NCBI GenBank assembly: GCA_003216275.1
Contig: QCJC01000002.1
Coordinates: 62,001-126,000 of the forward strand
Reading direction: 5' to 3'
DNA from: Prochlorococcus sp. AG-402-P18
GTDB taxonomy: Bacteria; Cyanobacteriota; Cyanobacteriia; PCC-6307; Cyanobiaceae
Length of the DNA: 64,000 nt
Below are positions 58,442 through 61,178 of this stretch, in pieces. The notes beneath the pieces were generated by a model that was not told the DNA's origin, did no database searches, and saw only the letters and a list, made by a program, of their open reading frames with translations. Position numbers and translations under genes: made by a program. Numbering within the stretch: the first letter of the stretch is position 1; every line of letters begins with the position of its first letter.

Positions 58442-58555
58442 GCTGAAGCTTATACAATTAAGCATTTTTTTATCTGTACTCTGATTGATGATCGTTCGGT
58501 ATTCCGCTCTCGAACACTCAACACAATGATTAGAATTTGTTTTTCTAAAAAAATC

Positions 58556-58663
58556 ATGAACTCTGGTGCTGAACGGTTTAATGGTTTAATGGCGATGATA
58601 GGCATCGTTGCTGGAATAGGCGCTTATGCAACAACTGGTCAATTCATCCCAGGTATTTTCTAG
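58556..58663 (+). CDS. hli: High-light-inducible protein (plus-strand copy, 35 aa)
   Basis: Hli/Scp proteins are single-helix chlorophyll- and carotenoid-binding relatives of plant LHC, associated with photosystems and thought to quench excess energy. From ATG 58556 the product reads MNSGAERFNGLMAMIGIVAG, then IGAYATTGQFIPGIF, almost only the binding helix plus the TGQ-IPG end. The normally conserved Arg in NGR is Leu. An upstream in-frame ATG at 58526 would add ten residues. It faces opposite to the six-gene hli array downstream. Confidence 0.88.
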   Translation: MNSGAERFNGLMAMIGIVAGIGAYATTGQFIPGIF

Positions 58664-59406: not shown

Positions 59407-59541
59407 TCAACTCATCGGCATGAATAAGTAGTCGGGAGCAACATAATTCACTGCTATAAGGATGACTGCTGTACTGGAAAGCCATAGTGTTGCCACTACT
59501 GGTGCGGACTTAAACCACTTTGTACGAAAGATTTTAAACAT
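59407..59541 (-). CDS. psaJ: Second PsaJ-like photosystem I subunit (island copy, 44 aa)
   Basis: The frame, missed by the track, reads [20 protein letters not shown], a helix [14 protein letters not shown], then [10 protein letters not shown]. It aligns without gaps to the core PsaJ at 1866 over 44 residues; I count 27 identities. The N-terminus and the PD-LF-PMS end are kept. However, the Glu at position 30 is Ala and the His at position 41 is Met; these correspond to Glu28 and His39, the chlorophyll ligands in Thermosynechococcus PsaJ. There is no adjacent psaF and no fusion, unlike cyanophage psaJF. It lies about 120 bases downstream of the hli array terminator. Confidence 0.9.
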
Positions 59542-59660: not shown

Positions 59661-59690
59661 AGCCTCTCCCTTGCAATACAAGGAGAGGCT
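59661..59690 (-). terminator. Terminator of the hli array
   Basis: AGCCTCTCCCTTG and CAAGGAGAGGCT pair into a GC-rich stem with one bulged C and a five-base loop. On the minus strand it is followed by a run of T, and it lies 24 bases beyond the last hli stop. This fits an intrinsic terminator for the six-gene array. Confidence 0.85.
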
Positions 59691-59713: not shown

Positions 59714-59839
59714 CTAGACAATTCCAGGAACAATCCAACCTGTTATTCCGTAGTTAATGACTGCAGCAAAGAAGCCCATCATCGCAAGGCGTCCATTCAT
59801 TTGCTCTGCTGTTTTCCAGTAATTCGTTTCTTTGTTCAT
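59714..59839 (-). CDS. hli: High-light-inducible protein, array gene 6 (41 aa)
   Basis: The last array gene reads MNKETNYWKTAEQMNGRLAM, then MGFFAAVINYGITGWIVPGIV. It keeps the full chlorophyll-binding ExxNGRxAM motif (as EQMNGRLAMMGFF) but ends TGW-IVPG rather than TGQ-IIPG. Its ATG shares the A of the preceding TAA stop (TAATG), suggesting re-initiation coupled to array gene 5. Too short for the track. Confidence 0.93.
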   Translation of the reverse strand: MNKETNYWKTAEQMNGRLAMMGFFAAVINYGITGWIVPGIV

Positions 59840-59985
59840 TACACAAAACCTGGAATGATTTGACCTGTTGTTAAGTATGCGCCAATAAGGGCTAAGCAGC
59901 CAACAGAAGCAGCTAGACCATTTAGTCGTTCAGCAAACACTTTGCCTTCTTCGACTCTTGGTGTTTCAGTGGTTTGATTTTTCAT
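59839..59985 (-). CDS. hli: High-light-inducible protein, array gene 5 (48 aa)
   Basis: The track reports a longer ORF from 60045, but its first 20 residues are translation of array gene 4 in another frame. The real start is ATG 59985, in a TAATG overlap with gene 4. The product MKNQTTETPRVEEGKVFAER continues LNGLAASVGCLALIGAYLTTGQIIPGFV. The conserved Arg and Met of NGR-AM are replaced (NGLAAS), so pigment binding may differ, while E, N and the TGQIIPG end are kept. Confidence 0.93.
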   Translation of the reverse strand: MKNQTTETPRVEEGKVFAERLNGLAASVGCLALIGAYLTTGQIIPGFV

Positions 59986-60134
59986 TACACGAACCCTGGA
60001 ATGATTTGGCCGGTAGTTGCATATGCACCTATAAGAGCAATACATCCAAACAATGCTGCATAGCCGTTAAGTCTTTCTGCAGTTACCTTTTCAGGATCAA
60101 TGTTTCTGCTGTTGTTGTTGTTTTGAGTAGTCAT
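59985..60134 (-). CDS. hli: High-light-inducible protein, array gene 4 (49 aa)
   Basis: The product begins MTTQNNNNSRNIDPEKVTAE and continues RLNGYAALFGCIALIGAYATTGQIIPGFV. It is the closest relative of gene 5 in the array (both have xERLNG, GCxALIGAY and a Phe-Val end) and probably arose by duplication. The Arg of NGR is Tyr. Start and stop both share bases with neighbours as TAATG. Confidence 0.93.
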   Translation of the reverse strand: MTTQNNNNSRNIDPEKVTAERLNGYAALFGCIALIGAYATTGQIIPGFV

Positions 60135-60253
60135 TAAACGACACCTGGGATAAGTTGACCGGTTGTTAGGTAGATGCCTGTTAGTAGAACGAAGGCCATC
60201 ATGGCTGGTCTGCCGATGCTTCTTTCTAGAATTGTTTTGTTAGATGGTTGCAT
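60134..60253 (-). CDS. hli: Divergent high-light-inducible protein, array gene 3 (39 aa)
   Basis: The shortest array member, MQPSNKTILERSIGRPAMMA then FVLLTGIYLTTGQLIPGVV. The motif reads ERSIGRPAM: the Asn that is a chlorophyll ligand in LHC-type helices is Ile, while Glu and Arg are kept. The start lies 11 bases after the gene 2 stop; the stop overlaps gene 4. Too short for the track. Confidence 0.88.
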   Translation of the reverse strand: MQPSNKTILERSIGRPAMMAFVLLTGIYLTTGQLIPGVV

Positions 60254-60264
60254 GATTAATTGTT

Positions 60265-60429
60265 TTAGAAGATTCCAGGAATGATTTGGTGGGTTATTGA
60301 GTAGGCACCGAGTAGAGCGATCATACCGAGCATCGCCCAGCGTCCATTCCTTTTCTCGGCGTCTTCTGGTTTGAACTTCTCAACTATGTTGACGTAGTTG
60401 CCAGATGCTGAAGGTAATTCAGTAGTCAA
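60265..60429 (-). CDS. hli: High-light-inducible protein, array gene 2 (54 aa)
   Basis: The product reads TTELPSASGNYVNIVEKFK, then PEDAEKRNGRWAMLGMIALLGAYSITHQIIPGIF, with a full EKRNGRWAML motif and a THQ-IIPG end in place of TGQ. The start is TTG at 60429, overlapping the TGA of gene 1 by two bases. No in-frame ATG exists upstream of the helix, so the TTG is needed. Confidence 0.9.
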   Translation of the reverse strand: MTTELPSASGNYVNIVEKFKPEDAEKRNGRWAMLGMIALLGAYSITHQIIPGIF

Positions 60430-60638
60430 AAGATTCCAGGAATGATTTGACCAGTTGTGAAGTAAGAAACGAGAAGACTAAAAAAGCCAATCATCGCCCA
60501 ACGACCATTTGTCTTTTCTGCTTCTTCTGGATAACTTGTGTAATCCTCGACAAGCTGGGGCTGTGTTTCACGGCCAAAGATGTTTTGCTTGCCGTACTCA
60601 GTGATCACCGGAGAAGAAGAAGAAGAAGAAGAAGTCAT
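60426..60638 (-). CDS. hli: High-light-inducible protein, array gene 1 (70 aa)
   Basis: The first and longest array gene starts at ATG 60638 (the track begins 12 codons upstream at 60674). It has a run of seven Ser encoded by a GAA-type triplet repeat on the plus strand, a hydrophilic leader (VITEYGKQNIFGRETQPQLVEDYTSYPEEAEKT) and a complete helix NGRWAMIGFFSLLVSYFTTGQIIPGIF. The full-length leader and intact motif make it the most canonical Hli here and it heads the operon. Confidence 0.94.
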   Translation of the reverse strand: MTSSSSSSSPVITEYGKQNIFGRETQPQLVEDYTSYPEEAEKTNGRWAMIGFFSLLVSYFTTGQIIPGIF

Positions 60639-60896
60639 GACTGAAAATAATTTATGTAAAGAAATGTAAAGCATCGACTTCCTAGGGTAAAGATTCGGTC
60701 TGGTACGGCTTCTTCTAACCCTTGATAGAGATAAACCTCAAACACTAATGACAGCAACTAATTAGAGAGATCTTTATTGAATGATTAGATCCACTGATGA
60801 TCCTGATAAGTATAAATAGCCCAAACACAAGTGTGTTTACCCATCCTTGATATTTTTTTTACGAGTTAGATTCGATTCGCCAATAAATCACTTTTC
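60639..60896. promoter_or_regulatory. Divergent promoter region of the hli array and a plus-strand gene
   Basis: About 258 bases between the start of hli gene 1 (minus) and the gene at 60897 (plus) must hold the array promoter. I see no well-spaced -35/-10 pair that I would defend, nor a known regulator site. The region is AT-rich near the hli start with a repeated TTTACAT-like motif on the minus strand. Confidence 0.5.
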
Positions 60897-61178
60897 ATGC
60901 GTCCCGAACCTGATGATATCCAAATACTTATCAGCAAGTACAGGACTATGGATATTGAAGAATTAAAGTCAAATATCGACGACTGGGAAAAAAATAATGA
61001 TTGTACTATTCAACAAGAAAACATTGATCTAGCAAAAAACGAACTTGAGCTAAAATACAAAGAGAGACAAGAACAAATTGATCTACTAACTAAATCTCTT
61101 ACTTCTTCATCAAGAATAGGTAGATGGATTTCAAGTTTTAAAGCAGTTATCAATCAATTTGTAGATTTCAAGAATTAA
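60897..61178 (+). CDS. Charged helical hypothetical protein (93 aa)
   Basis: The product is soluble, rich in Glu, Lys, Asp and Ile, probably a helical hairpin or coiled coil (IEELKSNIDDWEKNNDCTIQQENIDLAKNELELKYKERQEQIDLLTKSL), with a short amphipathic end (IGRWISSFKAVINQFVDF). No family recognised. It is divergent from the hli array across a 258-base region, so common light regulation is possible but not shown. Confidence 0.6.
   Translation: MRPEPDDIQILISKYRTMDIEELKSNIDDWEKNNDCTIQQENIDLAKNELELKYKERQEQIDLLTKSLTSSSRIGRWISSFKAVINQFVDFKN

Follow-up and report, generated by a model that had tools for sequence, protein, structure and literature searches.

The amplification of hli genes in genomic islands of low-light (LLI) Prochlorococcus is known, as stated in PMC7522525 on the authority of Partensky and Garczarek 2010, and multi-copy hli genes have been described in MED4 (PMC2663038). 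The cyanophages P-SSM2 and P-SSM7, both listed with NATL1A as host, carry a likewise chained cluster of five such genes (hli03-hli03-hli03-hli04-hli05; AY939844, GU071103), in which the annotated coordinates already show 1-nt overlaps joining the third to the fifth gene. The products, Hlips, bind pigment as dimers, two ExxNxR helices being required (PMC8617258); in the related LIL3, replacement of the Asn gives a colourless protein, and E171A and R176A lower chlorophyll affinity (PMC8617258, PMC6320596). Heterodimers of single-helix LHC-like proteins are also known, namely HliC/HliD in Synechocystis (PMC12142464, PMC8617258) and, as cited in PMC8617258, OHP1/OHP2 in plants. As for gene arrangement, -1 and -4 overlaps are known to couple translation by termination-reinitiation and are enriched among subunits of heteromeric complexes, and a separation of ~20 nt almost abolishes the coupling (PMC10666635). 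Cyanobacteria have few gene overlaps, about 40% of which have a Shine-Dalgarno (SD) motif ahead of the start, and their de novo starts make little use of SD motifs (PMC6728339).

Here we describe a chain of six hli genes, A to F, on the minus strand of a 64,000-nt stretch of DNA (the window) from Prochlorococcus sp. AG-402-P18. The chain shares family, clade and multi-copy clustered arrangement with the hli amplification of LLI islands, and it resembles the P-SSM2 and P-SSM7 clusters in having a C-class gene followed at -1 by a D-class gene. It differs from these clusters, however, both in gene order (A-B-C-D-E-F in the host versus A-F-X-C-D in the phages) and in the motif of the C-class protein, where the phages have LRANGR, with Glu lost, and the host ERSIGR, with Asn lost. 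There are also differences from the other precedents: (i) HliC and HliD both have the chlorophyll-binding motif, whereas the C and D/E proteins of the chain carry complementary losses; (ii) although the overlaps are of the same type as in the coupled pairs described elsewhere (PMC6728339, PMC10666635), and the same mechanism is expected, the chain has three successive -1 joints between genes of 39-49 codons, in a phylum with few overlaps. We found no description of fixed -1 joints or of C/D motif losses in the open-access literature.

Results

The genome is 1.85 Mb in size, with 36% G+C over the window; its nearest named matches are single cells of Prochlorococcus AG-402, and because some of these are listed as LLI (PMC6370341) we place it in the LLI clade. 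The original prediction of six hli genes running head to tail at 59714-60638 is confirmed by the frames, by the coordinates and by matches of all six proteins (39-70 aa) to PHROG 178/20629 'high light inducible protein', with a best E per protein of 5e-23 to 4e-9; F alone among them passes the Pfam Chloroa_b-bind cut-off. hli A (60638-60426; ATG..TGA, 70 aa) has the canonical ENGR motif and an N-terminal poly-Ser, and hli B (60429-60265; TTG..TAA, 54 aa) starts within a 4-nt overlap with the A stop. hli C (60253-60134; 39 aa), starting 11 nt past B, has the motif ERSIGR, in which Asn is replaced by Ile. It is joined by TAATG to hli D (60134-59985; 49 aa; ERLNGY, Arg lost), D in the same way to its D-class paralogue hli E (59985-59839; 48 aa; ERLNGL, Arg lost), and E to hli F (59839-59714; 41 aa, TAG stop), which is again canonical (ENGR) and ends in TGWIVPGIV. 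Outside the chain, a seventh hli gene of the 'AERFNGL' class (Arg lost), absent from the original prediction, lies ~1 kb downstream on the opposite strand (58526-58663, plus).

The same six-gene locus was found in nine genomes. Nei-Gojobori estimates over the nine orthologous loci give dN/dS of 0.27 for A, 0.22 for B, 0.00 for C (pN 0.000, pS 0.152), 0.06 for D, 0.13 for E and 0.07 for F, a range of 0-0.27 that indicates purifying selection on all six genes; these low values make A-F very probably real proteins. The poly-Ser of hli A is encoded by TCT repeats (60602-60632, minus strand), and the serine count varies among the nine orthologues, a variation that may have arisen by slippage. Contigs of the 'Euryarchaeota archaeon SP67' MAG carry hli genes ~68% identical to hli A, and these are probably cyanobacterial or phage contamination of the bin.

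The junctions are exactly as predicted: A>B is a -4 overlap (TTGA, combining TGA and TTG), B>C is a gap of +11, and C>D, D>E and E>F are -1 overlaps (TAATG). All five, including the TTG start of B and its TTGA overlap, are identical in the nine genomes, so that four of the five joints are conserved overlaps of the -1/-4 type by which coupled gene pairs are recognised. Longer genes of the window form 30 co-directional pairs, with -1 in 1/30 and -4 in 3/30. This scarcity, with five junctions unchanged in nine genomes, places the chain beyond chance.

Pattern evidence is that of a single transcription unit. The best terminator on the minus strand of the window (59690-59661; an 11-bp stem followed by TTTTT; -19.9 kcal/mol, z -4.1) stands ~24 nt past F and is kept in eight of the nine loci, the ninth having a different terminator-like sequence, while a pattern search of the window gave no minus-strand promoter-like or terminator-like site within the chain. 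The 258-bp region upstream of A (60639-60896), alignable over the nine loci, is the probable site of a single promoter, although no consensus promoter was called in it. The window contained no match to known RNA families, and at the TAATG joints RNA structure was not detected (z 0.2 to 1.0). Two further genes flank the unit: psaJ (59407-59541, minus strand; 44 aa, photosystem I subunit IX, Pfam E 9e-11) lies just 3' of the terminator, outside the chain, and a divergent gene for a 93-aa protein of unknown family (60897-61178, plus strand) lies across the 258-bp region.

LLI Prochlorococcus maintains multiple copies of a cassette of which this locus is a stable variant, and such chains are commonplace in the lineage and in some of its phages. 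Of 41 genomes from the genus, 36 have the C class, with up to seven copies, and a single genome may hold as many as seven occurrences of the core module C-D(-D)-F; two further chains occur in the genome studied here (C6:7385-8249 and C10:15438-15936). Over 300 genomes of the family, the pattern Q-x-I-P-G followed by TRATG was found in 74, with up to 15 occurrences per genome in Prochlorococcus, and it was absent from the larger-genome genera, which we take as Synechococcus-like. Cyanomyoviruses have a homologous C-D dyad at -1, making this a cassette of the cyanophage type; the motif theme recurs in cyanophages with different residues, LRANGR or QKAIGR being followed by EKWNGI or ERINGA. In most C copies of the loci fetched the 39-aa peptide is identical despite silent variation, with one sequence encoded by 41 of the 59 distinct DNA versions. 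Two-domain fusions, which we had considered as fossils of the chain, were dropped, since only one two-domain open frame was found among 1078 hli-like frames.

Distinct LLI junctions are at -1 in 53/54 cases for C>D, 22/22 for D>D and 41/42 for D>F, a total of 116/118, although cassette junctions are paralogue copies and these counts are not independent events. The C stop is followed by TG in all 113 C copies. In contrast, the spacing into C from whichever gene precedes it takes nine different values, from 5 to 34 nt, and because it varies in the same operons the tight joints are more than compaction. Fixed joints beside a drifting spacing in one cassette are the best evidence, though not proof, that the -1 overlap itself has been kept by selection. 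Outside LLI, the C-D spacings are looser (-1, -1, +42, 0), and given these values the dyad appears not always to need tight coupling.

Within the chain, A, B and F have the full ExxNxR, C is without the chlorophyll-ligating Asn, and D and E are without the Arg. Distinct D-class genes of LLI have, in place of this Arg, Tyr in 60 cases and Leu in 16, and none retains the Arg. When the 256 distinct -1 joints of all the loci fetched were examined, 72 joined a protein lacking Asn to one lacking Arg (E-R > EN-), and 73 joined one lacking Arg to a full motif (EN- > ENR). Lineages of Prochlorococcus outside LLI have an already degenerate C but a D that retains its Arg; strict co-evolution of the two losses was therefore rejected, and the Arg of D, whose loss is found in LLI and phages only, was probably lost after C had degenerated.

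Discussion

We consider it fairly probable, judging from sequence and conservation, that A-F form a six-cistron operon whose -1 joints are coupled by termination-reinitiation and whose C protein would enter mixed pigment-binding dimers with D/E or with F. We infer that the -1 joints are best explained by termination-reinitiation. The coupled re-initiation originally proposed for the whole chain is well supported by comparison for C>D>E>F, where -1 is kept throughout the genus and only the spacing into C is seen to drift. The case is weaker at A>B, where B has a TTG start, albeit one conserved in the nine loci, and at B>C, because the 11-nt gap lies within the range where coupling falls off (PMC10666635). 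The fixed stoichiometry also claimed does not follow, since the efficiency of re-initiation need not be 1.

A different view is that tandem duplication and cassette shuffling produced the TAATG joints incidentally, recombination at the conserved TGQIIPG end of the genes copying the spacing without coupling being needed. D and E are indeed paralogues, about 58% identical, copy numbers vary between genomes, with the middle gene present once or twice, and pS over the nine loci climbs steadily along the operon, being 0.06 for A and 0.32 for F, a gradient suggesting that the 3' part of the operon may have been exchanged with paralogues or phages. However, the same cassettes vary in their spacing into C; silent-site divergence peaks in D-F, which are thus not homogenised; different classes are linked by C>D and by D>F, and yet both joints are equally fixed; and the -1 joint is common to phages. 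On balance we regard shuffling as a rather unlikely origin of the joints.

Translation of each gene from a weak ribosome-binding site of its own, with no re-initiation, seems to us improbable. It would draw on the anti-SD ACCTCC that the 16S 3' end of this genome carries and on the Pro-Gly codons of the upstream gene, which place AGG/GG 8-9 nt ahead of the TAATG start. CCA at the Pro-Gly site is found at 71% of -1 joints versus 19% of gapped ones. However, SD motifs are little used for de novo starts in cyanobacteria (PMC6728339), and selection for the motif beyond codon preference is not clear: CCA has a frequency of 0.71 at this site, only slightly above the 0.61 of other sites in these genes, and in C it is used for every proline, the codon of Pro36 being the most variable and less conserved than those of Pro3 and Pro16. 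The idea that an internal SD has been selected from the Pro-Gly codons was accordingly dropped, within-gene codon controls leaving only a weak excess; such a motif is in any case not required in cyanobacteria (PMC6728339). That genome streamlining merely removed intergenic bases, giving overlaps without consequence, fits the small genome and the -1 and -4 overlaps elsewhere in the window (4/30 longer pairs) but is very improbable, with adjacent joints of the same operons left uncompacted at 5-34 nt and -1 itself found elsewhere in only 1/30.

On the preferred reading of a coupled operon, one mRNA would start at a promoter upstream of A and end at 59661, and ribosomes terminating on C, D and E would re-initiate at the AUG whose A is also the last base of the stop codon. 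C, D, E and F would then be made together in one patch of thylakoid membrane and could assemble while inserting. C, with its Asn lost, and D/E, with their Arg lost, would be unlikely to make normal homodimers; they would pair with one another or with a canonical protein, F for example, and the resulting asymmetric pigment-binding dimers would serve in chlorophyll quenching or storage when photosystems are stressed and repaired. The heteromeric pigment complexes envisaged in the original prediction are plausible, Hlips being dimeric and HliC/HliD offering a precedent, and the opposed motif losses are an added argument. Complementarity of the C and D/E losses suggests a coupled C:D heterodimer, short of proof. 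A stronger version, to which we give only tentative credence, is that C and D/E form an obligate, asymmetric partnership in which their synthesis is tied by the -1 overlap, in a design common to LLI hosts and their phages; of the normal two-fold Glu-Arg zipper, a C:D dimer would retain only one half, Glu(D)-Arg(C), and it would bind fewer pigments or hold them in a new geometry.

The feature is real and conserved, and its chained arrangement was already on record in phage annotation. Genes as short as ~40 codons and joined by TAATG are easily missed by annotation. The complementarity of the C and D motifs is to us the most interesting point, and one worth an experiment. The mixed-dimer reading, if true, offers a concrete test of the role of multi-copy Hlips in Prochlorococcus and its phages, which have so many hli copies: were obligate mixed dimers the product of the -1 chained cassette, the amplified unit would be a complex rather than a gene.
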